From: Salipiger bermudensis HTCC2601
GTDB taxonomy: Bacteria; Pseudomonadota; Alphaproteobacteria; Rhodobacterales; Rhodobacteraceae
Reading direction: 5' to 3'
Length of the DNA stretch: 64,000 nt
NCBI RefSeq assembly: GCF_000153725.1
Contig: NZ_DS022276.1
Span: 2,105,442 to 2,169,441, forward strand
Part shown: positions 34,880 to 53,731 of the stretch, in pieces
How positions within the stretch are numbered: the first letter of the stretch is position 1
How the letters are laid out: every line of letters starts with the position of its first letter
Notes under the pieces: generated by a model
Database searches by the model: none
Told to the model about the DNA's origin: nothing
What the model saw: only the letters and a program-made list of their open reading frames with translations
Program-made: the position numbers and the translations under genes

Positions 34880-35154
34880 CCCGGCAGGAGAAAGACGCCG
34901 TCGAACACGCCGCGCGCAAGGCCGCAAATCTGGAGCGGATGAAGCAGAGCGATCCCGAGCCCTCGCTCGGCTCGCGGCTCGGCCAGATCGGCATTCTCGG
35001 CTGGGCGGTGCTGGTGCCGATGCTGCTGGGCGTGGTGCTGGGCCGGTTTCTCGACCGGGTCGCCGACACCGGCATCATGTTCACCGCCGCCGGGATCTTC
35101 CTCGGTGCCGCCATCGGCATGCACGCGGTCTGGAGATGGATGCACAGGCAATGA
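34876..35154 (+). CDS. atpQ: N-ATPase accessory protein AtpQ (AtpI/AtpZ-like)
   Basis: A 92-residue membrane protein with a charged N-terminus and two membrane segments (ILGWAVLVPMLLGVVLGRFL; IMFTAAGIFLGAAIGMHAVW). It belongs to the AtpI/AtpZ-like family and holds the Q position in N-ATPase operons. AtpI-type proteins help assemble the c ring and/or handle Mg2+; for AtpQ this is inference. Both ends overlap neighbours as ATGA. Confidence 0.88.
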
Positions 35155-36366: not shown

Positions 36367-36379
36367 TCGGCATATCGCC

Positions 36380-37114
36380 ATGACCATCGACTGGTGGACA
36401 CTCGGTCTCCAGACCGTCAACGCGGCTATCCTGATCTGGCTGCTCGCCCGGTTCCTGTTCCGCCCGGTGTCCGAAATCATCGCCAAGCGGCAGGCGCTCG
36501 CCCATGCGGATCTCGACGCGGCGGAGGCCGCGAAGCAGGCCGCCGAGGCCGAGCGCGAGGCGGCGGTTGCCGCGCGGGCGGAGATCTCGGCCCGCCGCGC
36601 TGCCCTGCTCGACGCCGCGCAGGCGGATGCCGAGCGCGAGAAGGCGCGCCTCAAGGAGCAGGCGCAGGCCGAGATCGCCGAGGACCGCCGCCGCGCCGAG
36701 GCGGCGCAGGCGCGGGCCGAGGCCGACCGCCGCAAGGAGCTTGACGAACAGGCTGGCTACCTCGCCGCCGACATCGCCGAGCGGCTGCTGCGCCGGCTGC
36801 CCGATGCCGCGCGAACCGTGGGCTTCATCGACGGTCTGGTGGTGGCTGTGTCCGAGCTGCCTGCCGCGGTGCGCGATCGTCTGGGCAGCGACGGCCCGGT
36901 GCCGGTGCGCGCCGCGCGCATGCTGCTGCCCGAGGAGCGCGCCACGCTCGAGGCCCGCCTCGCCGAGGCGCTGGGCCGCACGCTTACGCTCGAGATCCGC
37001 GAGGATCCGGAGCTCATCGCAGGGCTCGAGCTCGACGCCACCAACGCCATCGTGCGCAACCATTTCCGGGCCGACCTGTCCCGGATCACAGCGGAGCTGA
37101 CACGTCATGACTGA
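36380..37114 (+). CDS. atpF: N-ATPase subunit b with delta-like C-terminus
   Basis: A 244-residue peripheral-stalk subunit, much longer than the usual 155-185 residues. One membrane helix ([20 protein letters not shown]) is followed by a long Ala/Glu/Arg coiled coil to about residue 140. The end, about residues 174-244, reads like the C-terminus of subunit delta: [20 protein letters not shown], then [20 protein letters not shown] and [12 protein letters not shown]. There is no atpH in the operon, so this protein probably supplies the delta contact with F1. The stop overlaps atpA by 8 bp. Confidence 0.92.
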
Positions 37115-38639: not shown

Positions 38640-39481
38640 GCAGCCGGCTCTCGGAGGTCGAGAAGCGCATCGTCACGGTGCACAAGCTCGACGCGGTGAT
38701 CTCTGCCATGCGCGGCCTCGCGGCGGCGCGGGTGCAGGAGGCCAATCGCCATCTCGAGAGCATCCGTGCCTATGCCACCACCATCGGCGATGCCATCGGC
38801 GAGGCGCTGGCCTACGCCACGGGTCTCGGCCTCGACGCGCCGTTGCATGGCGGCGAGGGCAGCCGTCTGGTGGTGCTGTTCGCCGCCGAGCAGGGCTTTG
38901 CCGGCACCTATTCCGACAAGGTGTTCCAGGCCATCGAACCGCTCTGGGACGAGACCTGCGAGCTGGTGGTGATCGGCGACCGGGGACATGTCGTTGCCGA
39001 GGAGCGCAGGCTCGCCATCGCGTGGTCCGCCCCGATGATCGCGCATCCCTCGCAGGCCCCGGAACTGGCCACTCGGATGACCGACGCGCTGTTCCGGCGC
39101 ATCACGCTGGAGCCGGTGACCCGCGTCACGCTGGTCCATGCCGATCCCGGCGCCGGCGGGGCGATGATGATCCGCATCAAGGAGCTGGTGCCCTTCGACT
39201 ATGCCCGGTTTCGACCGTCTGAGCGCCGCCTGCCGCCGCTGGTGACCCTGCCGCCCGAGCGGCTGCTGGCGCAGCTTGTCGAGGAGCACATCTTTGCCGA
39301 GCTGATCGAGGCTGTGATGCTGTCCTTCGCTGCCGAGAACGAGGCAAGGATGCGCGCCATGGTGGCCGCCAAGGACAACGTCTCGGAAAGCCTTCAAGCG
39401 ATGATCGGCGAGGCCCGCCGCCTGCGGCAGGAGGACATCACGCAGGAAATCACCGAGCTGGCGACCAGCAGCCTGGTCTGA
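38636..39481 (+). CDS. atpG: N-ATPase subunit gamma (F1)
   Basis: A 281-residue gamma subunit, the rotor shaft. The N-terminal helix [20 protein letters not shown] with [13 protein letters not shown] and the C-terminal helix [20 protein letters not shown] match the coiled-coil that penetrates the alpha/beta ring. The middle Rossmann-like part ([20 protein letters not shown]) is conserved. It ends the operon; a GC hairpin follows the stop directly. Confidence 0.94.
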
Positions 39482-39498: not shown

Positions 39499-39559
39499 CA
39501 TTGCAGCCTGTGCACGGGTTTCCTAGGGTCGCGCCGAACCTGTGCCGAGGCGGATGACC

Positions 39560-40693
39560 ATGACAGAGACCACCTATCACGGCGGCCCGATCTTCGACGG
39601 GCAGCGCCTGCTGCACGGCCATGCGCTGCGGATCGAGGCCGGCCGCGTGACGGCGCTGGCGCCCGAGGCGGAGCTTGCGGCGGCGGGCGAGGTCGTCGAT
39701 CTCGGGGGCGATCTGCTGGCGCCGGGCTATGTCGATCTGCAGGTCAATGGCGGCGGCGGGGTGATGGTCAATGACGGCCCCACGGTGTCCGGCCTGGCGA
39801 CCATCGCCGAAGCTCATCGCAGGCTCGGCAGCACCACGATCCTGCCCACCCTGATCACCGACACGCCCGAGCGTAGCCGCGCCGCGATCGAGGCCGTGGC
39901 GCAGGCCATCGCCGAGGGTGTGCCCGGCATCGGCGGGCTGCATCTGGAGGGGCCGCATCTGGCGCTCTCCCGCAAGGGGGCCCATGACGGCGCGCTGATC
40001 CGCCCGATGACGGAGGCCGACCTCTCGATGCTCCGCGACGCCGCCCGCCGCCTGCCGGTGCTCAAGGTCACGATCGCCCCCGAGAACACCACTCAAGCGC
40101 AGGTGGCCGCACTGGCCGAGGCCGGCGCGCTGGTCTCGCTCGGCCATACCGATGCAAGCTACGACACCTGCCTTGCCTATGCGCGGGCTGGCGCAAGCTG
40201 CGTGACGCATCTCTTCAACGCCATGCGCGGCCTCGACAAGCGCGAGCCCGGCGTGGTCGGCGCCGCCCTCGCCAGCCAAGCGCTCGCGGCGGGCCTGATC
40301 GCCGACGGCGTGCATGTGCACCCGGCCGCGATGCGCATCGCGCTGGCCGCCCGGCCGGAGGGCATCTTCCTTGTCACCGACGCCATGGCCGTGGCCGGCA
40401 CCGAGGCGAAAGGTTTCCGCCTCAACGGGCGCGAGATCACCCGCGCCGATGGCCGGCTGGTCCTGCAGGACGGCACGCTGGCCGGGGCCGATCTCGATCT
40501 CACCCGTGCCATCAACCTTCTGGTTTCGGATCTGGGCCTGCCGCTCGAACCGGCCCTCGCCATGGCGACCTCGATCCCGGCGCGCCTCGCGAACCTGGGG
40601 CAGGGTATCGGAACCCTTGCCGCCGGCGCCCCGGCCCGCGCCATCCGCCTCCGGCACCGCGCTCAGGGGCTCGCCCTCATCGCCCCGCTCTGA
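39560..40693 (+). CDS. nagA: N-acetylglucosamine-6-phosphate deacetylase
   Basis: NagA (EC 3.5.1.25) converts GlcNAc-6-P to glucosamine-6-P in amino-sugar and peptidoglycan recycling. The 377-residue amidohydrolase has DLQVNGGGGVMVNDGPTV, the metal-ligand Glu in GLHLEGPHLALSRKGAHD, the His ligands in SLGHTDASYDTCLAYA and VTHLFNAMRGLDKREPGVVG, and the catalytic Asp in LVTDAMAVAGTEAKGF. I chose ATG 39560 with GAGG 9 bp upstream; ATG 39554 is possible. No nagB, kinase or transporter is adjacent, so it is an orphan here, downstream of the N-ATPase operon. Confidence 0.95.
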   Translation: MTETTYHGGPIFDGQRLLHGHALRIEAGRVTALAPEAELAAAGEVVDLGGDLLAPGYVDLQVNGGGGVMVNDGPTVSGLATIAEAHRRLGSTTILPTLITDTPERSRAAIEAVAQAIAEGVPGIGGLHLEGPHLALSRKGAHDGALIRPMTEADLSMLRDAARRLPVLKVTIAPENTTQAQVAALAEAGALVSLGHTDASYDTCLAYARAGASCVTHLFNAMRGLDKREPGVVGAALASQALAAGLIADGVHVHPAAMRIALAARPEGIFLVTDAMAVAGTEAKGFRLNGREITRADGRLVLQDGTLAGADLDLTRAINLLVSDLGLPLEPALAMATSIPARLANLGQGIGTLAAGAPARAIRLRHRAQGLALIAPL

Positions 40694-40829: not shown

Positions 40830-42212
40830 TCAGACCATGCCTTCCGATTTTGCCCAGTCGAGCGCCCGGTCGAGCGCCCGGCCAAAGCGGGCGAGGATCT
40901 CGGTCAGGTCGTCTTCGGTGACGATCAGCGGCGGGCAGAAGGCGACGGTCTCGTAGACGTTGCGCACGATCAGCCCTTCCTCGGCGCAGAGCGCCACGAC
41001 CTTGGCCGCCATCGAGCCCGCCGGCTCGAAGGCCTCGCGGGTGTCGCGGTTCTTGGCCAGCTCGACGCCCGCGATCAGGCCCACGCCGCGCACTTCGCCG
41101 ACCAGCGGGTGATCGGCGAACTTGCGCAGACCGTCCTGGAACATCGGCTCGAGGCGCTCGGCATTGCCCATCAGATCCTTCTCTTCGATGATCTTCAGGT
41201 TCTCGAGGCCCACGGCGCAGGCGACCGGGTGGCCCGAACCGGTGAAGCCGTGGCCGAAGGTGCCGAGCTTGGCGGTGTTGTCGGCAATGGCGTCATAGAC
41301 CTTGTCGTTCACCACGATCGCGGCGAGCGGCATGTAGGACGAGGTCAGCTGCTTCGAGGTCACAAGGATGTCCGGGGTGAAGCCGAAACGCTCGCAGCCG
41401 AAGGGTTTGCCGGTGCGGCCGAAGCCGTTGATGACCTCGTCGGCCACCAGCAGGATGTCGTATTTCTTGCAGATCTCGGCAACGCCGGGCCAGTAGCCCT
41501 CGGGCGGCACCATGACGCCGCCGGCGCCCATCACCGGCTCGCCGATGAAGGCGCCGATGGTCTCGGGGCCCTCGGCAAGGATCGTGTCCTCGAGCTCCTT
41601 GAGCAGGCGCGCGGTGAACTGCTCCTCGGTCTCGCCCTCTTCGGCGAACTTCCAGTAATGCGGCGTGGTCAGGTGGGTGACCGGAATCGCGGGAAGGTCG
41701 AAATCCTTCTGGTTCGCCGGCAGCCCGGTGAGCGAGCCCGACGCGATGGTGATGCCGTGATAGGCCTTGTTGCGCGACAGGAACTTCTTCTTCTCCGGGC
41801 GGCCGAGGCCGTTGTTGAGGAACCAGACCATCTTGACGACGGTGTCGTTGGCCTCGGAGCCGGAGTTGGTGAAGAACACCTTGTTGAGCCCTTCCGGGGT
41901 CATCTCGACCAGCTTCTCGGCGAGGCGGATCGACGGCTCGTGCGACTTGTGCGCGAAGGTGTGGTAGTAGGGCAGCTTCTTGAGCTGCTCGTAGGCCACG
42001 TCGGCGAGGCGGTTTTCGGAGAAGCCCACGGCGACCGACCACAGGCCTGCCAGCGCCTCGTAATATTCCTTGCCCTCGGTGTCATAGACCTTGGCGCCGT
42101 CGCCATGGCTCATGATCATCGGACCCTTTTCCTCGTGCAGGCGCATGTTGGTGTAGGGGTGCATCGTGTAGGCGATGTCGGCGGCGTGAAGCGAGTTCGG
42201 ACGCTGGTTCAT
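40830..42212 (-). CDS. Class III (omega) aminotransferase, putrescine aminotransferase-like
   Basis: A 460-residue PLP-dependent class III aminotransferase. Family marks: LHEEKGPMIMSHGDGAKVYD, VFFTNSGSEANDTVVKMVWF (PLP phosphate site), NKAYHGITIASGSLTG, LLVADEVINGFGRTGKPFG (Asp to the PLP ring), and SKQLTSSYMPLAAIVVND with the Schiff-base Lys. It resembles the SpuC/omega-amine:pyruvate group, which transfer amino groups from diamines or beta-amino acids. GGAG precedes the ATG at 42212. It is the last gene of the minus-strand arm of the GntR locus, 132 bp after the M20 gene. Substrate is inferred from context only. Confidence 0.88.
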   Translation of the reverse strand: MNQRPNSLHAADIAYTMHPYTNMRLHEEKGPMIMSHGDGAKVYDTEGKEYYEALAGLWSVAVGFSENRLADVAYEQLKKLPYYHTFAHKSHEPSIRLAEKLVEMTPEGLNKVFFTNSGSEANDTVVKMVWFLNNGLGRPEKKKFLSRNKAYHGITIASGSLTGLPANQKDFDLPAIPVTHLTTPHYWKFAEEGETEEQFTARLLKELEDTILAEGPETIGAFIGEPVMGAGGVMVPPEGYWPGVAEICKKYDILLVADEVINGFGRTGKPFGCERFGFTPDILVTSKQLTSSYMPLAAIVVNDKVYDAIADNTAKLGTFGHGFTGSGHPVACAVGLENLKIIEEKDLMGNAERLEPMFQDGLRKFADHPLVGEVRGVGLIAGVELAKNRDTREAFEPAGSMAAKVVALCAEEGLIVRNVYETVAFCPPLIVTEDDLTEILARFGRALDRALDWAKSEGMV

Positions 42213-42344
42213 GTTGGTCTCCGTATTGGCAGTGGCCCCCGCAGGGCCTGAGGTTTCGGTTGGGGAGAAGGCCGCGGGAGACTCAGGTCCCCGTTGGCGC
42301 ACAGTTAAGATGACTTTGGGTCAAAGGTCACGGGGAGAATTTGA

Positions 42345-43628
42345 TCAAATCTTTTCCAGTCCGCACCATTCCGCGATGAACAGAGCGATCGTGCCGGTCA
42401 CGCGCTTCACCGAGGACAGTTTGACGCGCTCGTCGAAGCCGTGGATGGCTTCGGAATAGGGCCCGTAGACAAGGCACGGGGTCTCGCCGTAGATCACGAA
42501 GACCCGCCCGTCGAGATAGCCCGGCGTCACGAAGCTCTCGAGCGGCTTGGCGTAGCTCGACATGTGGGCGCGGGCGAGCGTGTCCTCGGCCTCGGTGCCT
42601 TCCTCGAGCACGTAGCCCTCCGCGAAGAAGCCGTTGAAGATCACCTCGGGCGGGTTGTTGGCGAGGAACGGGATGCGGTCTGAGACCCGGCGCAGGTGGT
42701 CCTCGATCTCGCGCGCGGCGTCCGCGGCCTTGATGCCGGGATAGAGCGCGATACGGCAGTCGAATTCGCACCAGGCCGGCACCGAGGAGGCCCAGTCGCC
42801 GCCGGCGATCTTGCCGACGTTGAAGTTGATCGGGTGCTCGAGCTCTTCGAAATACCGGTGCTCGCCCTTCTGGGCGTTCCACGCCTCCTCGAGCTCGCGC
42901 AGCCCCTTGATCAGGTCGTAGGCGGCCTCGATGGCGTTGGCCCCGGAGCCGGCCTCGCGCACGTGCACCGGTGCGCCCTGCACCCGGACGCGGAACCACA
43001 GCACGCCGGTGTTGGCGCGCACCAGCATGTCATCCTCGGGCTCGGGGATGATCGCGGCATCGGCATTGTAGCCGCGCAGAAGCGCCGCGAGCGCGCCGTT
43101 GCCGGTGCATTCCTCTTCGACCACCGATTGCTGGTAGAGCGTGGCGGCGGGTCGGTAGCCGAGGCGCTTGAGCGCATCCACGGCAAAGATATTGGCGGCG
43201 ATCCCGGCCTTCATGTCTGCGATGCCGCGACCGTAGAGCCAGTCGCCGTCGCGCTTCGGCTCGAAGGGCGGGTGGCTCCACATATCAAGCGGCCCCGTGG
43301 GGACAACGTCGACATGGCCGTTGAGCACCAGCGACTTCCCCGTCTCCTCGCGCGGACGTATGGTGCCCACCACGTTGATCGCGTTGGAGTAATCGACCTC
43401 GACCGGCGAGAAGCCGGGGTGATGCTTGATGTCGTCCACCTCGATGGTCCAGCGGTCCATCGCGTAGCCGCGGGCCTTCAGCGCGTCATGCAGGAAATCC
43501 TGTGCGGTCGCCTCCTGTCCCCGCAGGGACGGATGCCGCCCGAGCGCCTCGGTGAAGGCGATCTGTTCCTCGAAGCCCTCTTCGACGGCGGCGAGGATCT
43601 TTTCGGTCAGCTCGGCAGAGAGGGTCAT
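42345..43628 (-). CDS. M20 family deacylase (ArgE/DapE type)
   Basis: A 427-residue M20 metallopeptidase-fold amidohydrolase. The di-zinc site appears in KSLVLNGHVDVVPTGPLDMW (His and catalytic Asp), LYGRGIADMKAG (bridging Asp), SVVEEECTGNGALAAL (general base Glu and ligand Glu), AIIPEPEDD and the late His in YSEAIHGFDERV. The lid/dimer domain includes GAPVHVREAGSGANAIEAAY. ArgE/DapE-type members remove acyl groups from amino acids or diamines. Its ATG overlaps the stop of the HDAC-like gene by 4 bp. Confidence 0.92.
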   Translation of the reverse strand: MTLSAELTEKILAAVEEGFEEQIAFTEALGRHPSLRGQEATAQDFLHDALKARGYAMDRWTIEVDDIKHHPGFSPVEVDYSNAINVVGTIRPREETGKSLVLNGHVDVVPTGPLDMWSHPPFEPKRDGDWLYGRGIADMKAGIAANIFAVDALKRLGYRPAATLYQQSVVEEECTGNGALAALLRGYNADAAIIPEPEDDMLVRANTGVLWFRVRVQGAPVHVREAGSGANAIEAAYDLIKGLRELEEAWNAQKGEHRYFEELEHPINFNVGKIAGGDWASSVPAWCEFDCRIALYPGIKAADAAREIEDHLRRVSDRIPFLANNPPEVIFNGFFAEGYVLEEGTEAEDTLARAHMSSYAKPLESFVTPGYLDGRVFVIYGETPCLVYGPYSEAIHGFDERVKLSSVKRVTGTIALFIAEWCGLEKI

Positions 43629-44653
43629 GTCCCGCGCCCCATGAAGCCTTCCATGAAGGAGACCAGCGAAGTGGTGAGGTCCTCGGAGAGGTAGCCGCCT
43701 TCCTGCACGATCACCGTGGGGTAGCCGGCGGCGGCGATCATCTCGCCGGCGCGCCGGAAGCCGTCCCAGCTGATCTGCATGCCGAGCAGCGGATCGTTCT
43801 CGTGCGCATCGAGCCCGAGGCTCAGCATCAGCGCGCCCGGCTGGTAGGCGGCGATCTTCTCCAGCGCGTCAGCGATGGTCTTCAGCCAGGCCTCGTCGGT
43901 GGTGGTGCGGGGCAGGGGGTAGTTGGTGTTGAAGCCCGCGCCCGCGCCGGCGCCGGTCTCGTGGGCGTAGCCGACGAAGAACGGGTAGTAGGTCTCGGGA
44001 TCGGCGTGGATCGAGATCGTCATCACGTCGTCGCGCTCGTAGAAGATCGCCTGTGTGCCGTTGCCGTGATGCACGTCGATATCCAGCGTCGCGACCTTGT
44101 CGTGCTGGCTGCGCAGCCGCGCGGCGGCGACGGCGGAGTTGTTCATCATGCAGTGCCCGGCGGCCATGTCGGCCGAGCTGTGGTGCCCGGCGGGGCGGCA
44201 GAGCGCATAGGCGGCGCGATCTCCGGCCAGCACCGCGTCTGCGGCAGCGACGGCGCAGTCGGCGGCCCGGCGCGATGCGGTCCAGGTGTGCTCGCCGATC
44301 GGGGCCGAGGTGTCGCCCATGTGCCAGCCGGCGCGCCCGACGATGCTGGCCGGATAGGTCGCGAAGCCGCGCTGCGCAAAGACGTTCGGCACCACCTCGG
44401 GGCCGGCATTCGGCAGCGCCTGCCACTGCTCCCAAGCGGTCTCGAGGAAGGTGAGGAAGTCTTCCGTGTGGACCTCCGCGAGCGCATCGCGCGAGGCTTC
44501 CGCCGGTTCGATGGCGTCGAGGCCGAGCTGATCGAGCCCCGCCTTCAGCAGCTTTGCGCGCTCGGCCTGCTCGGCGTTGCGCAGGATCTTGCCGTGGGTC
44601 AGGCGAAAGACCGGATCGTGGAGGTCGGTCTCGGGGGCATAGAAACACTTCAT
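43625..44653 (-). CDS. Histone deacetylase-fold amidohydrolase, acetylpolyamine type
   Basis: A 342-residue arginase/deacetylase-fold Zn enzyme. The active site is complete: CRPAGHHSSADMAAGHCMMN with His157/His158, TLDIDVHHGNGTQAIF with zinc ligands Asp193 and His195, LSLGLDAHENDPL with the third Asp, and VQEGGY with the transition-state Tyr. The FYAPETDLHDPVFRLTHGKI start and the RPxGHHS..A..GHCxxNN form match bacterial acetylpolyamine amidohydrolases rather than AcuC. It probably removes acetyl from an amine such as N-acetylputrescine; the exact substrate is unknown. It overlaps the regulator gene (TGATG) and the M20 gene. Confidence 0.92.
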   Translation of the reverse strand: MKCFYAPETDLHDPVFRLTHGKILRNAEQAERAKLLKAGLDQLGLDAIEPAEASRDALAEVHTEDFLTFLETAWEQWQALPNAGPEVVPNVFAQRGFATYPASIVGRAGWHMGDTSAPIGEHTWTASRRAADCAVAAADAVLAGDRAAYALCRPAGHHSSADMAAGHCMMNNSAVAAARLRSQHDKVATLDIDVHHGNGTQAIFYERDDVMTISIHADPETYYPFFVGYAHETGAGAGAGFNTNYPLPRTTTDEAWLKTIADALEKIAAYQPGALMLSLGLDAHENDPLLGMQISWDGFRRAGEMIAAAGYPTVIVQEGGYLSEDLTTSLVSFMEGFMGRGT

Positions 44654-45351
44654 CAGTCTGGCTTCTCTTCCATGTTGCGGAATTGCTCGACAACGAGGTC
44701 GCGGGCGACCTCGATATGGTAGCGCAGCGCCTCGACGGCCTCGGGCTCGTCGTGGCGCAGCATCGCGTCGAGGATGGGTTGGTGGGTGTCGGCCAGCTTC
44801 TGGGCGTCATCGTAGAGCCGGCCGATCATCATGATCGTCAGTTCCGACTCCATCGCGATCTGGTCGAACGTGGCGAGGAACTTCGGGTTGCCGGAGCCGG
44901 CGCAGATCAGCCGGTGGAATTCCATGTCGGCCTCGACCTGCGTCAGCATGTCGAAGCCGGGGCCGGCGACGCGGCGCATCTCTTCTATCTGCTGAACAAG
45001 GCGGGGGCCGCTCTCGCCCATCCCGTCGCGGATCAGACGGCGTACCGCCGCGGTCTCGATCACCAGCCGGAATTCGTAGAGATCGGCCAGTTCGCGCGCC
45101 GTGATCGAGCGCACGAAGAAGCCGCGATTGGGCAGGTAGGTCACCAAGCCAGAGTTCTCGAGCAGCCGCGCCGCCTCGCGCACCGGGGCGCGGCTCACAC
45201 CGAGCTGGCGGGCCACCACCGATTCGGAGAGCCGTTCGCCCTGCGACAGCTGACCGGTCACGATCGCCTTGCTGAGCAGGCGCGCGACGCGCTGAACGAG
45301 TCCCTCGCGGTCGAGAGGCTGAAAGCCGTCGTTGTCCTGTTTTGGGTCCAT
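44653..45351 (-). CDS. GntR family regulator, FCD (FadR/VanR) subfamily
   Basis: A 232-residue regulator. The winged helix is RLSESVVARQLGVSRAPVRE followed by AARLLENSGLV; the helical FCD ligand domain has DMEFHRLICAGSGNPKFLAT and later His residues (ADTHQPILDAML, RYHIEVARDLV) that usually bind a metal and a carboxylate effector. I chose ATG 45351; a GTG at 45372 is also open, and neither has a strong ribosome binding site. It is first in the minus-strand arm and faces the aldolase gene across a 128-bp gap with a palindrome, so it likely controls both arms. Confidence 0.9.
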   Translation of the reverse strand: MDPKQDNDGFQPLDREGLVQRVARLLSKAIVTGQLSQGERLSESVVARQLGVSRAPVREAARLLENSGLVTYLPNRGFFVRSITARELADLYEFRLVIETAAVRRLIRDGMGESGPRLVQQIEEMRRVAGPGFDMLTQVEADMEFHRLICAGSGNPKFLATFDQIAMESELTIMMIGRLYDDAQKLADTHQPILDAMLRHDEPEAVEALRYHIEVARDLVVEQFRNMEEKPD

Positions 45352-45404
45352 GAAATCGAAACCGAAATGCACAAGTTGCGATCACGCTAATTGTAGGTTT
45401 GCCG

Positions 45405-45416
45405 ATTGTCGACAAT
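45405..45416. promoter_or_regulatory. Probable GntR/FCD operator
   Basis: ATTGTCGACAAT is a perfect 12-bp palindrome in the divergent gap; its core TTGTCGACAA fits the TNGTNNACNA pattern of FCD-type GntR operators. It is placed to repress both arms. Binding is inference. Confidence 0.6.
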
Positions 45417-45479
45417 TTCCTTGACCAAAGATGCGTTCTCGGCCTTTCTTTACGGCAAGCGATGAAAAGGACGACTTTG

Positions 45480-46250
45480 ATGCCCGATGGAGCACCCGCC
45501 GACACCGTCACCCAGCTGCGCCGCGATCTGGCTGCCGCCTACCGGCTGATCGCGCATTTCGGAATGGATGACGGCATCTACACCCATATCTCCGCGCGTC
45601 TGCCGGATGGTCCGGGTGGCGAGAAGCGCTTCCTTCTGAACCCTTACGGCCTGCGCTTTGACGAGGTGACGGCGGCGAATCTCGTCACCGTGGACGAGAC
45701 CGGCGCGGTGGTCGACGATCCCTATGGCGCTGGCGTCAACGCGGCCGGCTTCACCATTCACTCGGCCGTGCACATGGCGCGGCACGACGCGGTCTGCGTG
45801 CTGCACACCCACACCGTCGCCGGTGTCGCGGTGTCCTCGATCAAGGAGGGGCTGCTGCCGCTGAACCAGTGGTCGGCGCAGTTCTTCAACCGAATCGCCT
45901 TCCACGACTACGAAGGCATCGCGCTGAACCTCGAGGAGCGCGAGCGCATCGTGGCCGATCTCGGTGAGAAGCAGGTCATGCTGCTGCGCAACCATGGCAC
46001 GCTGCTGCTGGGCCGCTCGGTTGCCGAGGCGGTGAAACTGGCGCTGAACCTCGAGCGGTCCTGCAAGGCGCAGGTGGCGGCTCTGGGCATGGGGCAGACG
46101 CCGATCGTGCTGCCCGACGATGTCGCCGAGCACACGGCCGGCCAATATCAGAAAATGTATGACAAGATGGAAGGCGCCGGCGGCAAGGATCCCGAGTGGG
46201 ATGCCTTCCTGCGGATGCTGGAAACCGCCGCTCCCGGCTACAAGGGCTGA
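45480..46250 (+). CDS. Class II aldolase/adducin family protein
   Basis: A 256-residue class II aldolase/adducin domain protein. The metal site is visible as VCVLHTHTVAGVAVSS (two His) and LLRNHGTLLLGRSVAEA (third His). LRRDLAAAYRLIAHFGMDDG and IYTHISARLPDG are the usual N-terminal marks. Members cleave or decarboxylate hydroxy-acid or sugar-phosphate substrates; many catabolic-operon members are not sugar-phosphate aldolases. I chose ATG 45480, with AAGGA 8 bp upstream; ATG 45462 is possible. It opens the plus-strand arm next to the operator. Confidence 0.88.
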   Translation: MPDGAPADTVTQLRRDLAAAYRLIAHFGMDDGIYTHISARLPDGPGGEKRFLLNPYGLRFDEVTAANLVTVDETGAVVDDPYGAGVNAAGFTIHSAVHMARHDAVCVLHTHTVAGVAVSSIKEGLLPLNQWSAQFFNRIAFHDYEGIALNLEERERIVADLGEKQVMLLRNHGTLLLGRSVAEAVKLALNLERSCKAQVAALGMGQTPIVLPDDVAEHTAGQYQKMYDKMEGAGGKDPEWDAFLRMLETAAPGYKG

Positions 46251-46329
46251 GTGGCGACCCGAGAGATAACCAATGCGGCCCGGCGCAGAACCGGGCCCGA
46301 CACCCCGAAACCAAACTGACAGGGAAAAC

Positions 46330-47877
46330 ATGAAACATCTCAAAGCGACGACCTTCCTGATCGCCGCCGCCCTCGCGGCGCCGCTTGCAGCCCAGGAGGC
46401 CGGTGGCCGGCTCGACATCGTGGTTCAGCCCGAACCGCCCTCGCTGATGCTGGGCCTGGTGCAGAACGGCCCGACGCAGCTTGTTGCCGGCGACATCTAC
46501 GAGGGCCTGCTGCGCTACGGCACCGACCTGCAGCCGCAGCCGCTGCTGGCGAAAAGCTGGGAGATCTCGGACGACGGCCTGACCTACACCTTCACGCTCA
46601 ACGAAGGTGTGAAGTGGCACGACGGCGAGGATTTCACCGCCGAGGACGTGGTGTTCTCTGCCGATGTCTTCCTGCGCGAGACCCACGCCCGCCTGCGCGC
46701 CTCGCTGGCCTATGTCGAGAGCATCACCGCGCCGGACGACACCACCGTGGTGTTCCAGCTGAAAGAGCCCTTCGGCCCGTTCATCAGCGTCTTCGAGACC
46801 GGCACCATGCCCATCGTGCCCAAGCACATCTATGAAGGCACCGATTTCGCCAACAACGAGATGAACGCCACGCCGATCGGCACCGGCCCGTTCAAGTTCG
46901 AGGCCTGGGAAAAGGGCAGCTACATCCACCTCGTGAAGAACGAGGACTACTATGTCGACGGTCTGCCCTATCTCGACGAGGTCTATTACCGCGTGATCCC
47001 GGATGCCGCCGCCCGCGCCGTGGCCTTCGAGACCGGCGAAGTGGACGTGCTGCCCGGCGGCTCGGTCGAGAACTGGGACGTGCCGCGTCTGACCGAGATG
47101 GACAATGTCTGCTCGACCGGCTCGGGCTGGGAGTTCTTCGCGCCGCACGCATGGATGTGGCTCAACAACCGCGAAGGTCCGACCAGCGACGTGCGCTTCC
47201 GCCAGGCGGTGATGTACGCGATGGACCGCGACTTCCAGCGCGACGTGGTGTGGAACGGCTTCGGCAACGTCGCCACCGGCCCGGTCTCGTCGAAGACCAA
47301 CTTCTACTCGGACGACGTGACGATCTACGATCACAACCCCGAGAAGGCCGAGGAGCTGCTGGCCGAGATGGGCTATGACGGTGAAGAGGTCCGCCTGCTG
47401 CCGCTGCCCTATGGCGAAACCTGGCAGCGCTGGGCCGAGGCCATCCGCCAGAACCTGAGCGAGGTCGGCATCAACGTGTCGATCGACAGCACCGACGTCG
47501 CGGGCTGGAACGAGAAGACGTCCCAGTGGGACTACGACATGGCCTTCACCTATCTCTACCAGTACGGCGATCCCGCGCTGGGCGTGTCGCGCAACTACAC
47601 CGCCGACCGCATCCAGAAGGGCAGCCCGTGGAACAATGTCGAAGGCTACGACAACCCCGAGCTCGACGAGAAGTGGTTCGCCGCCGCGACCATGATCTCG
47701 CCGGAAGAGCGTCAGGCCGCCTATAACGAGATCCAGCAGGAGATCGTCGACGACGTGCCCGTGGCGTGGCTTCTCGAGCTCGAGTTCCCGACCATCTACC
47801 GTTGCGACATCAAGGACCTCGTGACCACCGGCATCGGTGTCAATGACGGCCCGCGCAACGCCTGGATCGAGCAGTAA
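46330..47877 (+). CDS. ABC transporter substrate-binding protein, family 5 (Dpp/Opp type)
   Basis: A 515-residue periplasmic solute-binding protein of family 5. A signal peptide (FLIAAALAAPLAA-QE) precedes the SBP_5 domain: GDIYEGLLRYGTDLQPQPLL, YTFTLNEGVKWHDGEDFTAE, VRFRQAVMYAMDRDFQRDVV and WNNVEGYDNPELDEKWFAAA. The family carries oligopeptides, nickel, opines, acylated amines and glycosides, so the name does not fix the ligand. The gene is followed by two stem-loops and the permease genes, which fits higher expression of the binding protein. Confidence 0.93.
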   Translation: MKHLKATTFLIAAALAAPLAAQEAGGRLDIVVQPEPPSLMLGLVQNGPTQLVAGDIYEGLLRYGTDLQPQPLLAKSWEISDDGLTYTFTLNEGVKWHDGEDFTAEDVVFSADVFLRETHARLRASLAYVESITAPDDTTVVFQLKEPFGPFISVFETGTMPIVPKHIYEGTDFANNEMNATPIGTGPFKFEAWEKGSYIHLVKNEDYYVDGLPYLDEVYYRVIPDAAARAVAFETGEVDVLPGGSVENWDVPRLTEMDNVCSTGSGWEFFAPHAWMWLNNREGPTSDVRFRQAVMYAMDRDFQRDVVWNGFGNVATGPVSSKTNFYSDDVTIYDHNPEKAEELLAEMGYDGEEVRLLPLPYGETWQRWAEAIRQNLSEVGINVSIDSTDVAGWNEKTSQWDYDMAFTYLYQYGDPALGVSRNYTADRIQKGSPWNNVEGYDNPELDEKWFAAATMISPEERQAAYNEIQQEIVDDVPVAWLLELEFPTIYRCDIKDLVTTGIGVNDGPRNAWIEQ

Positions 47878-47890
47878 CCCAACCGGTTCG

Positions 47891-47914
47891 GGCCGGACTG
47901 TCCCTTGTCCGGCC
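47891..47914 (+). promoter_or_regulatory. Intercistronic stem-loop 1 after the binding-protein gene
   Basis: GGCCGGAC and GTCCGGCC form an 8-bp stem with loop TGTCCCTT, 14 bp after the binding-protein stop. No T tract. Such hairpins commonly protect the upstream message and lower permease expression. Confidence 0.6.
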
Positions 47915-47920
47915 TGACCT

Positions 47921-47955
47921 CGAGGCGCCGCCCCTTCCCCGTGGACGGCGCCTCG
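47921..47955 (+). promoter_or_regulatory. Intercistronic stem-loop 2 after the binding-protein gene
   Basis: CGAGGCGCCG and CGGCGCCTCG form a perfect 10-bp stem around a 15-nt loop, 26 bp before the permease ATG. It follows stem-loop 1 directly. Confidence 0.6.
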
Positions 47956-47981
47956 GGAAACAGATTCCCCTCCGAGGACGC

Positions 47982-48959
47982 ATGACCATTCTCATCGCAA
48001 TCCTCTCGCGGCTCGCGAAGGCGGCACTCACGCTGCTTGCCATCGCTGTCCTGAACTTCTGTCTGCTGCACGCAGCGCCGGGTGACCCGGCGGTGGTGCT
48101 GGCAGGCGAGGCGGGCGCGGCCGACGAGCAGATGATCGCGCAGCTGCGCGAACGCTTCGGCCTTGACCAGCCGCTTTACGTGCAGCTCGGCAAGTATATC
48201 GCCGGCATCGTGCAGCTGGATCTTGGCTATTCCTTCCGCCAGAGCGCCCCGGTGATCGACCTGATCGCCGAGCGGCTGCCGGCAACGCTGTTGCTGACCC
48301 TGACCGCCTTCGTGATCTCGCTGACCTGCGGCATCGCGCTGGGCGTCGCCGCCGCCGCCCGCGTCGGCAAGGTCTCGGATTCGCTCCTGACCACGCTGGC
48401 GCTGCTGTTCTACGCCACGCCGCTCTACTGGCTGGCGCTGATGGCGGTGCTGGTGTTCTCGGTCTGGCTCGGCTGGCTGCCCGGCTTCGGCTACGAGACC
48501 GTGGGCTCCGATTTCTCGGGCTTTGCCCGTGCCATCGACATCCTCAAGCACCTGATCCTGCCGGCGCTGACGCTGGGGCTGTTCTTCATGGCGGTCTACA
48601 TGCGCATGACGCGGGCCTCGATGCTCGAGGTCTCGACCGCGGACTTCGTCAAGACCGCCAAGGCCAAGGGCCTGTCGGGCCCGGTGATCCGCCGCCGCCA
48701 CATCCTGCGCAACGCCATCCTGCCGGTGGTCACGCTGGCGGGCCTGCAGGCGGGGCAACTCGTCGGCGGCGCGGTTCTGACCGAGACCGTCTTCGCATGG
48801 CCCGGCATCGGCCGGCTGATGTTCGAAAGCCTCGCCGCGCGCGACTACAACACCATTCTCGGGGTATTCCTCGTGTCCGCCGCCATGGTCATCCTGTTCA
48901 ACATCGTGACCGACATCGTCTACCGGATCGTCGATCCCCGGATCGGAGCGAGGGCCTGA
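47982..48959 (+). CDS. ABC transporter permease, DppB type
   Basis: A 325-residue inner-membrane permease. The start FCLLHAAPGDPAVVLAGEAG and LDLGYSFRQSAPVIDLIAER are typical of DppB-type subunits, and six membrane segments are visible. The EAA-type loop that docks the ATPase reads DFVKTAKAKGLSGPVIRRRH. It pairs with the next gene as a heterodimer. The stop is 3 bp before the next ATG. Confidence 0.94.
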   Translation: MTILIAILSRLAKAALTLLAIAVLNFCLLHAAPGDPAVVLAGEAGAADEQMIAQLRERFGLDQPLYVQLGKYIAGIVQLDLGYSFRQSAPVIDLIAERLPATLLLTLTAFVISLTCGIALGVAAAARVGKVSDSLLTTLALLFYATPLYWLALMAVLVFSVWLGWLPGFGYETVGSDFSGFARAIDILKHLILPALTLGLFFMAVYMRMTRASMLEVSTADFVKTAKAKGLSGPVIRRRHILRNAILPVVTLAGLQAGQLVGGAVLTETVFAWPGIGRLMFESLAARDYNTILGVFLVSAAMVILFNIVTDIVYRIVDPRIGARA

Positions 48960-48962
48960 GCC

Positions 48963-49796
48963 ATGTGGAAACGTTTCAGAAGCAATATCGGTGCCATGGT
49001 CGGGGTCGTCCTGCTTGTCGCCGTCATCTTCATCGCCATCTTCGCGCCGCTGATCTTCGCCAACACGCCCTGGCAGATGGTGCAGCGCCCGTTCCTCGCG
49101 CCGTTTGCGATGGAGAGCCTGCCGCTCGGCACCGACACGCTGGGCCGCGACGTGGCTGCCCAGCTGGCCTATGGCGCACGGGTCTCGCTGCTGGTCGGGC
49201 TGGTCTCGACGCTGGTGGCGCTGCTCATCGGGGTACCGCTTGGCGCGCTGGCCGGGTTCTATGGCGGATATGTCGATGAAGGCGCCATGCGCTTCACCGA
49301 GTTCTTCCAGACCATCCCGAACTTCGCGCTGGCCATCGTGCTGGTGGCGATCTTCGAGCCGACGCTGGCCTCGATCACGCTCGCCATCGCCATTGTCTCC
49401 TGGCCGCCGGTGGCGCGCCTGGTGCGGGCCGAGGTGATGTCGGTGCGCAAGCGCGAGTTCGTCGATGCCGCGACGCTGGCGGGCCTGTCGAAGCCGCGCA
49501 TCCTGGTGCGGCAGGTGCTGCCCAACACGGTCTCGCCGATCATCGTCATGGCCTCGCTGATGGTCGCCACCGCGATCCTGCTGGAGAGCTCGCTCTCCTT
49601 CCTCGGCCTCGGCGATCCCAATGCCATGAGCTGGGGCTACATGATCGGTGCCGCGCGCACGGTGATCCGCTCGGCCTGGTGGCTGAGCTTCTTCCCCGGC
49701 ATCGCCATCGTCATCACGGTGCTGGCGCTGAACCTCATCGGCGAAGGTCTCAACGACGCGCTGAACCCGCACCTCTCCCGGAAGGGCAAGGCATGA
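48963..49796 (+). CDS. ABC transporter permease, DppC type
   Basis: A 277-residue permease of the DppC type. LPLGTDTLGRDVAAQLAYGA is the family signature after the first membrane segment; the EAA loop is EFVDAATLAGLSKPRILVRQ followed by VLPNTVSPIIV. ESSLSFLGLGDPNAMSWGYM near the end is nearly invariant in DppC proteins. It overlaps the ATPase gene as ATGA. Confidence 0.95.
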   Translation: MWKRFRSNIGAMVGVVLLVAVIFIAIFAPLIFANTPWQMVQRPFLAPFAMESLPLGTDTLGRDVAAQLAYGARVSLLVGLVSTLVALLIGVPLGALAGFYGGYVDEGAMRFTEFFQTIPNFALAIVLVAIFEPTLASITLAIAIVSWPPVARLVRAEVMSVRKREFVDAATLAGLSKPRILVRQVLPNTVSPIIVMASLMVATAILLESSLSFLGLGDPNAMSWGYMIGAARTVIRSAWWLSFFPGIAIVITVLALNLIGEGLNDALNPHLSRKGKA

Positions 49797-51406
49797 GCAC
49801 GACACTTTCCATCGAACACCTCACCATCGGCCTGCCGGAGGGCGCGGATCGCCCCTTCGCGGTCGAGGACGTGAGCATGGCCATCGAGAAGGGCGAGATC
49901 CTCTGCGTGGTCGGTGAATCCGGCTCTGGCAAGTCGATGACCGCCAACGCGCTGATGGGGCTGTTGCCGCCGGGCGTGAACGTGAAAGCGGGGCGCGCCA
50001 TGTTCGAGGCCCGCGACGTGCTGCGTCTGCCCGAGGGTGAGAAGCAGGCGCTGCGCGGCGCCAGCATGGCGATGATCTTCCAGGAACCGATGACGGCGCT
50101 GAACCCGCTGATGCGCATCGGTGACCAGATCGTCGAGGTGTTCGCCGCGCATGACCGCTACACCCAGTCCGAGCGCCGCGAGAAGGCGCTCGCACTGATC
50201 CGCGAAGTGCAGCTGCCCGATCCGGAAAAGATCATCCGCGCCTATCCGTTCCAGCTCTCCGGCGGACAGCGGCAGCGGGCGATGATCGCCATGGCACTGG
50301 CGCTCGAGCCGAAGCTGCTGATCGCCGACGAGCCCACGACGGCGCTCGACGTGACGACGCAGGCGCAGATCCTCAAGCTGATCCTCGACCTGCGCGAGAA
50401 GCGCGGCATGGCGGTGATGTTCATCACCCATGACTTCGGCGTGGTGGCCGAGATCGCCGACCAGGTGATCGTCATGCGCATGGGCAAGGTGGTCGAGCGC
50501 GGCTCTGCCACCGAGGTGCTGGAGAACCCGCAGCACGACTATACCAAGCGTCTGCTCGAGGCGATCCCGACCGGCAAGCTGCCGGAGGCACGGCAGCTCT
50601 CGGAGACGCCGGCGCTCGAGATCAAGGGGCTGCGCAAGATCTACCGCACTGGCGGCGGCATGTTCAAACCGGTGCGCGAGGTGCGCGCGGTGGACGATGT
50701 CTCGCTCACCGTGGCGCGCGGCGAGGTGCTCGGGCTCGTCGGCGAATCGGGCTCCGGTAAGTCGACGCTCGGGCGCACCGCGGTGCGGCTCGTCACCCCC
50801 GATGGCGGGCAGGTGATGGTCGGCGGCACCGATCTTGCGGCGCTGTCCGACGAGGAGCTGCGCAAGCAGCGCCACAAGGTCCAGATGGTGTTCCAGGATC
50901 CCTATGCCTCGCTCAACCCGCGCCAGCGCATCATGGGCGCGATCACCGACGGGCCGATCACCCGCGGCATTCCGCGCAAAGAGGCCGAGGCCCGCGCCCG
51001 CGAGCTGCTCGAGATCGTGGGGCTGGGGGCGGATGCCGCCAGCCGCTTCCCGCACGAGTTCTCCGGCGGCCAGCGTCAGCGCATCGGCATCGCCCGGGCG
51101 CTTGCGATGGACCCCGAGCTGATCATCGCCGACGAGGCGGTCTCGGCGCTCGACGTGTCGATCCAGGCGCAGGTGCTCGACCTGCTGCGGGAGCTGCGCG
51201 AGAAGCTCGAGCTGTCGATTCTGTTCATCACCCACGACCTGCGGGTCGCGGCGCAGCTCTGCGACCGCATCGCGGTGATGCAGAAGGGCAAGCTGGTCGA
51301 GATCGGGACGGTGCACGACATCTTCCTGAACCCGCAGCAGGAGTACACCCGCAAGCTGCTCGCCGCCGTGCCCGGTGCCGACTGGGACCAGCAGGGAGCG
51401 GCCTGA
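49793..51406 (+). CDS. Fused ABC ATPase (DppD-DppF type, two nucleotide-binding domains)
   Basis: A 537-residue protein with both ATPase domains of a Dpp-type importer in one chain. Domain one: Walker A GESGSGKS (41-48), LSGGQRQR signature, Walker [13 protein letters not shown], switch FITHDFG. Domain two: Walker A GESGSGKS (about 317-324), [29 protein letters not shown]. The C-terminal oligopeptide-transporter extension [20 protein letters not shown] is present. In the second Walker B the usual DEP-T/V-SALD has Ala for Pro (DEAVSALD), seen in some homologues. One chain serves both permeases. The start overlaps the permease stop. Confidence 0.95.
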
Positions 51407-51408
51407 GC

Positions 51409-52308
51409 ATGATCGGGGTCGTCACCAACACCGCGTTCGAGATGTTCGACCGCTTCAGCCCGATCTTCGCAGCCGAGGCGCCGGAGATCACCATCCTGCG
51501 CCCCGAGGATGTCGAGCGCCCCGAGGAGGTGTCCTTCGTGTTCACCTTCCGCCCGGCCGACGATGCCTTCGCGCCCTATCCCAATCTGCAGGCGGTGTTC
51601 TCCGCCGGGGCCGGGACCGACGCCATCGACGCCTGTCCGTCGCTGCCCGAGGGCGTGCCGGTCTACCGTGTCGAGGATGCCGACCAGGCGCTGCAGATGG
51701 CGGGCTATGCGGCCTTTCACGTGCACTGGCATCACCGCCACATGGCGCAATACGTCGCCCAGCAGCGCGACGCCGTGTGGGAGCGTGTGCTGACGGGGCT
51801 GTCGCCGACCCACAAGCGGGTTGGCGTGCTGGGCTTCGGGCACATGGGCCGCGCCATTGCCAAGGGCCTCATGGCGCTGGGCTACCCGGTCTCGGCCTAT
51901 GCGCGCTCGCAGCCCAATCCGCCCGAGCCGGGCGTGCGCCATTTCACCGATGGCCAGATGGACGCTTTCCTCGCCGAGAGCGACATGCTGGTGAACGTGC
52001 TGCCTTTGACCGAGCAGACCAAGGGCCTGATCGACGCCGCCTTCCTGCGCAAGCTCCCCGAGGGGGCGGCGCTGATCCACATGGGGCGCGGCGGGCAGGT
52101 CGACGAGGCGCAACTGCTCGAGGTGCTCGACGCGGGTCACCTCTGCGGCGCGTCGCTGGATGTCTTCGACACCGAGCCGCTGCCGGCAGAGAGCCCGCTC
52201 TGGGGCCATCCCAAGGTGCTCATCACCCCGCATGTGGCGTCGATCCCCGAGGCCACCTTTGTCGTGCGCGGCATCCGCGACCGGATGCGCGCGCTCGTTC
52301 CCGCCTGA
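51409..52308 (+). CDS. 2-hydroxyacid dehydrogenase, glyoxylate/hydroxypyruvate reductase A-like
   Basis: A 299-residue D-2-hydroxyacid dehydrogenase of the GhrA branch. The NAD(P) loop is GVLGFGHMGRAIAKGL (G-x-G-x-x-G). The catalytic Arg is in HMGRGGQVDEAQLL, Glu in LDVFDTEPLPAESPL and His in LITPHVASIP. GhrA-type enzymes reduce glyoxylate, hydroxypyruvate and related 2-oxo acids; the substrate in this operon is unknown. It begins 2 bp after the ATPase stop. Confidence 0.92.
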   Translation: MIGVVTNTAFEMFDRFSPIFAAEAPEITILRPEDVERPEEVSFVFTFRPADDAFAPYPNLQAVFSAGAGTDAIDACPSLPEGVPVYRVEDADQALQMAGYAAFHVHWHHRHMAQYVAQQRDAVWERVLTGLSPTHKRVGVLGFGHMGRAIAKGLMALGYPVSAYARSQPNPPEPGVRHFTDGQMDAFLAESDMLVNVLPLTEQTKGLIDAAFLRKLPEGAALIHMGRGGQVDEAQLLEVLDAGHLCGASLDVFDTEPLPAESPLWGHPKVLITPHVASIPEATFVVRGIRDRMRALVPA

Positions 52309-52336
52309 TCCTCTCCTCTTCTCCCCGCAGGACGCC

Positions 52337-53731
52337 ATGACCACCGATCCCAACGACCTCTCCGCCCGCGAACTCGCGGCCCGCGTCCGCTCGGGCGCGC
52401 TCTCTGCCAGCTCCGTCATCCGCGATACGCTTGACCGCGTCGCCAAAATGAACCCGCTGGTGAACGCGATCATCCAGGACTGCGGCGCCGACGCCATGGC
52501 CGAGGCCGAGGCGCTTGACGCGCGCATCGCCAAGGGCGAGGCGGTGGGGGCGCTGGCGGGCGTGCCGGTGACCATCAAGGTGCTCTCGGATCAGGCGGGC
52601 TATGCCTCGACCAACAGCTGCCGCATCTTCAAGGACGTGATGGCGACCGAGGACGCGCCCTTCCTGCGCCACCTGCGCGAGAAGGACGCCATCGTCATCG
52701 GGCGGACCAACACGCCGGCCTTCTCTTATCGCTGGTTCTCCACCAACAACTTCTACGGCGACACCAAGAACCCCCACAATGACACGCTGACCGCCGGCGG
52801 CTCGTCGGGCGGGGCAGGGGCTGCGGTGGCGACCGGCATGGGCCATATCGGCCACGGCACCGACATCGCGGGCTCGATCCGCTATCCGGCTTATGCCTGC
52901 GGCGTGCAGGGGCTGCGCCCGACGCTGGGCCGCGTGCCGATGTTCAACGCCTCTTCCGGCGATCGCGGCGTGGGGCCGCAGCTGATGGCGGTTTCGGGCC
53001 CGCTGGCGCGCCGGGTCGACGACCTGCGGCTGGGGCTCGAGGGCATGGCGGGCTACGCGCCCGAGGATGTCTGGAGCGCCCCGGTGCCGCTGGTCGGCCC
53101 GACCTACCGCCGCCGCGTGGCGCTGGTGAAGCGCCCGGGCGGCATCGACACCGATCCGCGCATCCTAGAGGATCTCGACCGCGCCGCGGCGATCTTTCGC
53201 GCCGCCGGCTGGCAGGTCGACGAGCCTGCCGAGGTTCCGGAAATCCGCGAGGCGGTGGAACTGCAGATCGACCTGTGGCTCTCGGACGATCACGCAACCA
53301 AGCTGCGCATGGCGCATGAAGAGGGCGATCCCGGCGCCATCGCGCTGCTCGAGCACTACGCGCCCCGCGCCGAGGCCATCGACGCCAAGCGTTTTGGCGA
53401 GGTGTTCCAGCGCCGCGCCACGTTGGCCCGGCACTGGCGCCACTTCCTGCAGGACTACCCGGTGGTGCTGATGCCGGTTTCGGCGGAGCTGCCGTTCAAG
53501 CAGGATGCCGACCTTGAAGGTGGCGACGCGGTGGCGCGGCTCTGGGAGGCGCAGCTGCCCCAGATCGCCTTCCCGGCGCTGGGCCTGCCGGGCATCGCCG
53601 TGGCCTCGGGGGTGGTCGACACCGTGCCCTCTGGCGTGCACCTGATCGGCGCACCGTGGCGCGAGGACGTGCTCTGCGACGCGGGTGAGGTTCTCGAGCG
53701 CGGGTTCGGCTTTCCCGGCCTCGTGTCCTGA
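52337..53731 (+). CDS. Amidase signature family protein
   Basis: A 464-residue amidase signature enzyme. The Ser-cisSer-Lys triad is visible: Lys81 in GVPVTIKVLSDQ, Ser156/157 in LTAGGSSGGAGAAVATGM, and the nucleophile Ser180 in GHGTDIAGSIRYPAYACGV. The N-terminal SARELAARVRSGALSASSVI is usual for the family. It is not GatA in context: the gatB gene lies elsewhere in the window, without gatA or gatC. It ends the plus-strand arm of the GntR locus and probably releases an amine or ammonia from an acyl amide. Confidence 0.92.
   Translation: MTTDPNDLSARELAARVRSGALSASSVIRDTLDRVAKMNPLVNAIIQDCGADAMAEAEALDARIAKGEAVGALAGVPVTIKVLSDQAGYASTNSCRIFKDVMATEDAPFLRHLREKDAIVIGRTNTPAFSYRWFSTNNFYGDTKNPHNDTLTAGGSSGGAGAAVATGMGHIGHGTDIAGSIRYPAYACGVQGLRPTLGRVPMFNASSGDRGVGPQLMAVSGPLARRVDDLRLGLEGMAGYAPEDVWSAPVPLVGPTYRRRVALVKRPGGIDTDPRILEDLDRAAAIFRAAGWQVDEPAEVPEIREAVELQIDLWLSDDHATKLRMAHEEGDPGAIALLEHYAPRAEAIDAKRFGEVFQRRATLARHWRHFLQDYPVVLMPVSAELPFKQDADLEGGDAVARLWEAQLPQIAFPALGLPGIAVASGVVDTVPSGVHLIGAPWREDVLCDAGEVLERGFGFPGLVS

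Follow-up and report, generated by a model that had tools for sequence, protein, structure and literature searches.

A divergent GntR-regulated gene block in Salipiger bermudensis, predicted to serve the uptake and deacylation of an N-acylated amino compound

The described systems that come closest to the locus reported here are the acetylpolyamine amidohydrolases (APAHs) of the histone deacetylase (HDAC) fold, the dipeptide importer DppABCDF, the class II aldolase FucA, pyruvic oxime dioxygenase (POD) with the further aldolase-fold iron enzymes NovR and TqaM, and the omega-transaminase 6g4b of the P. jessenii caprolactam pathway. Relatives of these proteins were found side by side in Salipiger bermudensis HTCC2601, within a 64,000-nucleotide stretch of contig NZ_DS022276.1 (positions 2,105,442 to 2,169,441; hereafter the window), where two divergent gene arms at 40830-53731 flank one GntR/FCD regulator gene. 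Outward from the regulator, the minus arm encodes an HDAC-fold hydrolase, an M20 ArgE/DapE-family deacylase and a PRK06105 aminotransferase, and the plus arm a class II aldolase-fold protein, an SBP_bac_5 binding protein, DppB, DppC, a fused DppDF, a GhrA-type dehydrogenase and an amidase. Pfam and NCBIfam searches matched every gene named in the original prediction, which had been made from the bare sequence, at about its expected place, with one regulator between two arms as proposed. In searches of the open-licence literature aimed at the locus or its HDAC, none of the titles and abstract beginnings listed describes this gene set, in keeping with the expectation that no published pathway has it.

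With a probability of roughly 0.55, the locus is read here as a self-contained catabolic unit for the import, deacylation, transamination and further use of an N-acylated, likely carboxylate-bearing amino compound. In the proposed scheme, the single GntR/FCD regulator would control the whole unit. N-acylated amino compounds that lack a free alpha-amino group would be bound outside the cell by the SBP_bac_5 protein and enter via the DppBCDF-type importer, the cytoplasmic HDAC-fold hydrolase would strip the acyl group, most likely acetyl, and the omega-aminotransferase would turn the freed amine into an oxo acid or aldehyde. Interconversion of 2-oxo acid and D-2-hydroxy acid would fall to the GhrA-type dehydrogenase, and the aldolase-fold metalloenzyme would pass the oxo or hydroxy acid on into central metabolism, while the M20 enzyme and the amidase may broaden the range of amides opened in this species. 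The substrate most likely has a carboxylate where acetylpolyamine has an amine. What was observed is the gene content, its conserved linkage, the palindrome and the residue losses described below, and from these I infer the substrate class, the step order, the part played by the operator and the reaction of the aldolase-fold protein; import, deacylation, transamination and then 2-oxo/2-hydroxy acid handling is the best-supported order.

The gene arrangement exceeds chance, and the block has been conserved as a unit. From a scan of a genome collection with the binding-protein alignment, the best 80 of 541 loci were kept, a sample that for this reason favours near kin, and 13 genes of the window, together with 19 found in annotated relatives, were then located on these 80 loci. 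Linkage was counted in the 62 loci whose flanks measured 8 kb or more left of the binding protein and 9 kb or more right of it, excluding 18 loci with shorter flanks. GntR was present in 56/62, the aldolase-fold gene in 52/62, the HDAC gene in 51/62 and the GhrA-type gene in 49/62; HDAC and aldolase-fold genes occurred together in 47/62, and the GhrA-type gene accompanied both in 45/62. Across all 80 loci, short flanks included, the HDAC count was 63. The original prediction had also listed three different amide-cleaving enzymes, which turned out to be a local feature, as M20 was found in 23/62 and the amidase in 24/62 well-flanked loci. The arrangement recurs in Rhodobacterales, Thalassospira, Hyphomicrobiales, Azospirillum, Tistrella and Comamonadaceae, and is therefore kept well beyond the order in which its conservation was to be checked. 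In the window's own genome, which has 20 SBP_bac_5 genes and 4 HDAC genes, a single pair lies within 12 kb, namely the one described here. When the unassigned open reading frames (ORFs) of 96 loci were clustered, one family reached 12 loci, its member in L007 overlapping an annotated ABC ATPase, and no other family occurred in more than 6.

A second sample gave a similar picture. The binding-protein profile was run over 299 genomes of the phylum, found matches in 15 including the window's own genome, and 16 regions were fetched; the 11 binding proteins outside the own genome with scores over 780 bits were taken as close relatives. An HDAC gene stood beside 8/11 close relatives and 0/5 lower-scoring regions (Fisher p 0.026), and an aldolase-fold gene beside 7/11 and 0/5 (Fisher p 0.034). 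Two of these regions (L188 and L189) come from genomes already among the 80 loci, and removing them left 6/9 for HDAC (p 0.031) and 5/9 for the aldolase-fold gene (p 0.086). The divergent order of aldolase-fold gene, GntR and HDAC was preserved in L188, L189, L190, L191, L192 and L197. A draw of 198 genomes from the family argues against a strict unit. An HDAC relative at E <= 1e-60 was present in 72 of them, just 9 of the matches listed being above 52% identity, and 40 regions around such matches were fetched. A core of GntR, HDAC and aminotransferase was found in L039, L040, L041, L042, L044 and L045; in L042 and L045 this importer was absent from the 20 kb fetched. In L045 (genome G092), its place upstream is taken by a Peripla_BP_6 binding protein, and L042 (G127) retains GhrA, the aldolase-fold gene and the palindrome discussed below. 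L054 has the importer, GntR, M20 and HDAC, with the aminotransferase of that core absent.

The aldolase-fold protein retains the PF00596 fold of FucA and its metal-binding His triad (residues 136/138/199 in the numbering of the 45399 ORF, kept in 68/68 aligned rows), and differs from FucA at the other positions compared. Catalytic Glu73 of FucA is replaced by Gly117 and Tyr113 by Gln, both in 68/68 rows, and the phosphate-binding sites are likewise changed: Asn29 is His and Ser72 is Ala in 68/68, Thr43 is Tyr in 35 or Phe in 33, and Ser71 is Ala in 42, Lys in 19 and others in the rest. Because catalytic Glu73 and the phosphate-binding residues are missing, retro-aldol cleavage by this protein appears doubtful, and the label of class II aldolase given in the original prediction calls for correction. 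Of the sequence of steps predicted there, uptake followed by deacylation stands as the most economical reading, and the cleavage of the carbon skeleton is the part that has become questionable. An AlphaFold2 model (predicted local distance difference test score, pLDDT, 76.3) had 3ocr as its best Foldseek match in the PDB, followed by adducin, a yeast FucA-named protein, TqaM, POD and NovR, with E. coli FucA lower. The PDB titles describe TqaM as a non-haem iron enzyme and NovR as an oxygenase of the non-haem iron type; identities to POD, NovR and TqaM in the Foldseek rows were 24-29%. TqaM, compared around the Glu73 position, has Gly there as well. According to two papers on POD, this Fe(II) enzyme also does without Glu73, Tyr113 and the phosphate-binding residues (PMC11841055, PMC5216522) and keeps the same His triad (PMC11841055), while its Phe103 aligns via FucA with Ile120 here. 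By analogy with these relatives, an oxidative reaction is possible.

A true retro-aldolase or decarboxylase acting on a hydroxylated substrate, with the GhrA-type enzyme reducing the released glyoxylate or hydroxypyruvate, is nevertheless conceivable: the best match 3ocr is titled an aldolase II superfamily protein, the pyridine-dicarboxylate decarboxylase 2z7b shares the fold, and GhrA, the NCBIfam name, stands for an enzyme known for glyoxylate and hydroxypyruvate. The best NCBIfam match of the dehydrogenase was indeed GhrA (NF012013), although its 177.7 bits are under the cut-off of 403. Genes for an APH kinase and a PRK06148-type aminotransferase in some relatives also hint at hydroxylated amines. 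Set against the residue replacements described above, which hold in all 68 rows at Glu73 and Tyr113, I regard such a retro-aldolase as possible but rather doubtful. The PRK07044-type family has more than one role, since relatives at 51-53% identity adjoin carnitine 3-dehydrogenase in carnitine clusters of Palleronia, Alloyangia and Thioclava (L170-L172), near genes of BKACE, the 3-keto-5-aminohexanoate cleavage family. In L083:11084-22441, a relative at 60% identity accompanies GhrA-annotated and formamide deformylase-annotated genes and an Opp-type importer, with no annotated HDAC, so that the pairing of aldolase-fold protein and GhrA appears in another amide context.

The importer has the same composition as DppABCDF, that is, an SBP_bac_5 protein, two permeases and two ATPase domains, and differs from it in the fusion of DppD and DppF and in its putative ligand contacts. 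Asp408 and Arg355 of DppA presumably anchor the two ends of the dipeptide. Asp408 is replaced by Gln430 (46273-ORF numbering), invariant in 10/10 rows of A1 and 21/21 rows of A4, and the Arg355 position lies beside a gap in the rows shown and is not conserved. A free dipeptide is therefore an unlikely ligand, and a capped amine would fit the loss of these dipeptide-end residues. The structure model of the binding protein (pLDDT 60.7) was not used.

The HDAC-fold hydrolase shares fold and catalytic residues with the APAHs (M. ramosa 3Q9B, M. subterrani 6PHR, 3MEN, and P. aeruginosa PA0321/PA1409), and its closest PDB entries are 3men, 6phr, 9gkz and 3q9b. The catalytic set H157 H158 D193 H195 D282 Y321 was intact in all 124 aligned rows. 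A phmmer alignment to the M. ramosa enzyme (MrApaH, 3q9b), free of gaps across the first ~40 residues, defined the equivalent positions: Glu17, Glu106 and Glu117 of MrApaH correspond to Arg17, Val105 and Ser116, and PLL stands in place of the PIS motif. Among 44 close rows (at least 60% identity, window included; one of 115 matches was dropped for an in-frame stop), Arg17 and His167, the counterpart of Tyr168 in MrApaH, were found in 44/44. Position 105 was V in 28, L in 12, I in 3 and T in 1, with no acidic residue, and position 116 was S in 43 and A in 1. The charge reversal at Glu17 in the N-terminal loop suggests a substrate bearing a carboxylate. Judged from these residues, an N-acyl compound with a carboxylate is a likelier substrate of this hydrolase than an acetylpolyamine, and the label of acetylpolyamine amidohydrolase in the original prediction is correspondingly weakened.

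The label implies a specific alternative, namely an operon in which acetylputrescine, acetylcadaverine or acetylspermidine is imported, deacetylated in the manner of an APAH and transaminated as in diamine catabolism. The nearest solved relatives of the hydrolase are APAHs, the aminotransferase subfamily is related to omega-aminotransferases, and the APAHs of P. aeruginosa are reported to support growth on acetylputrescine and acetylcadaverine (PMC4784309). The residue changes weaken this case: Glu106, which forms a salt bridge with the polyamine in MrApaH, is V, L, I or T here, and Tyr168, which contacts its alkyl chain, has been exchanged (contacts as described in PMC11532494). The same text reports that PsApaH, with His at position 106, is still active on acetylpolyamines, so that loss of Glu106 alone does not exclude APAH membership. 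The aminotransferase scored 746.5 bits against NCBIfam NF004767 (cut-off 517), with 9j4y and 6g4b as its closest PDB entries; it matched 6g4b over nearly its full length (608 bits), and no caprolactamase was recognised in the window locus. No aldehyde dehydrogenase Pfam domain was found in the ORFs of the locus either, the rest of the genome not having been searched for one, and genes of the GhrA type or the aldolase fold are not known to take part in diamine catabolism. Taken together, I consider an acetylpolyamine operon unlikely.

In a tree of 112 HDAC proteins, the importer-linked label required 7 changes compared with a shuffled mean of 32, and a clade of 26 members, all importer-linked, stood on a long branch separate from the clade of the window protein. 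The unlinked rows of this tree were found with the window HDAC as the query, leaving unlinked kin of the far clade unsampled; two rows are long-branched, and at least 3 regions were fetched twice from one genome. With these cautions, the separate importer-linked clades suggest that a deacylase was recruited to the side of this importer more than once. A more ambitious reading would combine this with the aldolase-fold comparison: an as yet undescribed regulon for the catabolism of N-acetylated amino compounds with a carboxylate, in which the HDAC fold was repeatedly recruited to the one importer to act as a metabolic amidohydrolase, and in which the aldolase-fold protein, as a non-haem Fe(II) oxygenase, would shorten by oxidation the 2-oxo acid delivered by the aminotransferase and the GhrA-type dehydrogenase. 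As a whole, this combination is speculative and rather improbable. The window's genome contains a second HDAC cluster (C6:2628200-2648100, L078) with consecutive aminotransferase, BKACE, GNAT and HDAC genes; BKACE lies within ~2 kb of the HDAC gene in 19/33 regions (L046-L078), the adjacency is also seen in Phyllobacterium, and such clusters may represent another acetylated-amine pathway.

The stretch that separates the start of gntR from the likely start of the aldolase-fold gene contains the palindrome ATTGTCGACAAT, of which the 5.48 Mb own genome has a single perfect copy, in this locus. Its core TGTCGACA was found in 78/81 related intergenic segments, some of them from one genome fetched twice, and in 49/80 loci the decamer TTGTCGACAA lies no more than 1.8 kb upstream of the gene for the binding protein; these upstream stretches contain 50/52 copies of TTGTCGACAA in 1.59 Mb of related loci. 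In genomes G000, G088, G052, G067 and G127, the sole copy of the dodecamer is located in this locus, and G107, G092 and G002 of the family draw had zero copies. The position and conservation of the palindrome suggest that it may be the operator bound by the GntR protein.

Several observations weigh against the proposed unit and its assumed regulation. The PRK06105 aminotransferase was detected in only 35/62 well-flanked loci, and HDAC was not detected in 11/62 (L092, L094, L097, L102, L115, L116, L117, L121, L123, L129 and L132), 7 of which have another amide hydrolase and 4 none that was detected. In the phylum draw, L193, L194 and L195 hold the importer with no HDAC or aldolase-fold gene detected, and L086 and L088, two of the annotated plasmid relatives, encode the binding protein with no HDAC annotated. 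HDAC relatives also occur without the locus in the stretch fetched (L043 at 67%, L046 at 56% and L006 at 64%). Outside the clade of the window protein, position 17 is Tyr or Phe in most transporter-linked HDACs, which confines the argument from Arg17 to that clade. The dodecamer was present in 49/198 family-draw genomes and seen in this locus in 5, so that the motif alone is not a marker of the locus, and when 2 mismatches were allowed the window had 3 palindrome matches, a number reached by 5/100 shuffles. Finally, TTGTNNACAA was missing from 10/11 close loci of the phylum draw, where the decamer was found in L188 and the lower-scoring L202 alone; more distant regulators must therefore read another site.

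Breakdown of a hydroxamate siderophore or metallophore, with the HDAC-fold enzyme opening an N-acetyl-N-hydroxylysine-like unit, was considered on account of the surroundings of two annotated relatives. In Pseudosulfitobacter (L005:1030-6181), a hydroxamate-type cluster directly adjoins the related locus (lysine/ornithine N-oxygenase, GNAT, alpha/beta hydrolase and sigma factor, preceded by a MATE exporter), and iron-siderophore ABC genes adjoin the locus in L007; the binding protein also scored 179.9 bits against the NikA model, which is below the cut-off of 393. No such neighbours were annotated in the other annotated stretches inspected, and hydroxamates coordinate zinc and inhibit HDAC-fold enzymes according to PMC11532494, which makes siderophore breakdown very improbable. 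A pantothenate/pantoate route built on a hydroxyacid dehydrogenase and a ketopantoate aldolase (a '2-dehydropantoate 2-reductase' occupies the GhrA place in Azospirillum relatives, and a 48% aldolase-fold relative lies near panC in Paraburkholderia) was set aside, as it offers no evident function for HDAC and M20 and the aldolase-fold protein lacks Glu73. The core chemistry is unlikely to involve a hydroxylysine-type substrate, since APH was found in 2/80 and the PRK06148-type aminotransferase in 4/80 loci, and a literature search aimed at hydroxylysine returned nothing on this locus among the matches listed.

The features of the locus are collected in Table 1. Alignments served to place the likely starts, whose codons were then verified, and several of these starts are internal to the longest ORFs. 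In NCBIfam, the aldolase-fold protein reached 315.6 bits against NF005451 (cut-off 207) and the amidase 585 bits against NF005687 (cut-off 428), and for the GntR/FCD regulator 0/14 models listed attained their cut-off. To the left, the locus is followed by a nagA-like gene at 39542-40693 (TIGR00221, 259.9 bits, cut-off 225.65) and by ATP synthase genes at 35105-39481, possibly an N-type ATPase operon, in which the ORF at 36380-37114 matches both the b-subunit and the OSCP/delta Pfam families. To the right lie a DEAD-box helicase and a GatB-type gene.

Table 1. Genes and predicted operator of the divergent locus, in window coordinates.
Feature	Coordinates	Strand	Basis
Class III omega-aminotransferase, PRK06105 subfamily, 460 aa from likely start	40830..42212	-	Aminotran_3; ATG at 42212, inside longest ORF
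M20 ArgE/DapE-family deacylase, PRK06837, accessory	42345..43628	-	Pfam/NCBIfam; closest PDB 3pfo
HDAC-fold amidohydrolase nearest APAHs, Arg at 17	43625..44653	-	PF00850, 248 bits
GntR/FCD-family regulator	44653..45372	-	Pfam GntR and FCD
Predicted operator, palindrome ATTGTCGACAAT	45405..45416		Single perfect genome copy and conserved core
Class II aldolase/adducin-fold metalloenzyme, PRK07044	45480..46250	+	PF00596, 163.8 bits; likely start 45480 inside longest (45399) ORF
SBP_bac_5 periplasmic binding protein	46330..47877	+	Pfam; residue numbering from 46273 ORF; likely start 46330 inside longest ORF
DppB/OppB-type permease	47982..48959	+	Pfam
DppC/OppC-type permease	48963..49796	+	Pfam
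Fused DppD-DppF-type ATPase	49793..51406	+	Two ABC_tran stretches; ATG at 49793, inside longest ORF, overlaps DppC end
GhrA-type D-2-hydroxyacid dehydrogenase	51409..52308	+	PF02826, 164.5 bits
Amidase-signature hydrolase, PRK07487, accessory	52337..53731	+	PF01425, 251 bits; ATG at 52337, inside longest ORF

If the proposed import and deacylation of an N-acylated amino compound is correct, the locus would give many marine and rhizosphere Proteobacteria the use of a nitrogen and carbon source whose pathway has so far been unassigned. It would also provide a genetic context for the branch of 'class II aldolases' (PRK07044) that lacks the aldolase glutamate, and a natural metabolic role for a group of bacterial HDAC-fold enzymes whose annotation goes no further than histone deacetylase family proteins or acetylpolyamine amidohydrolases.

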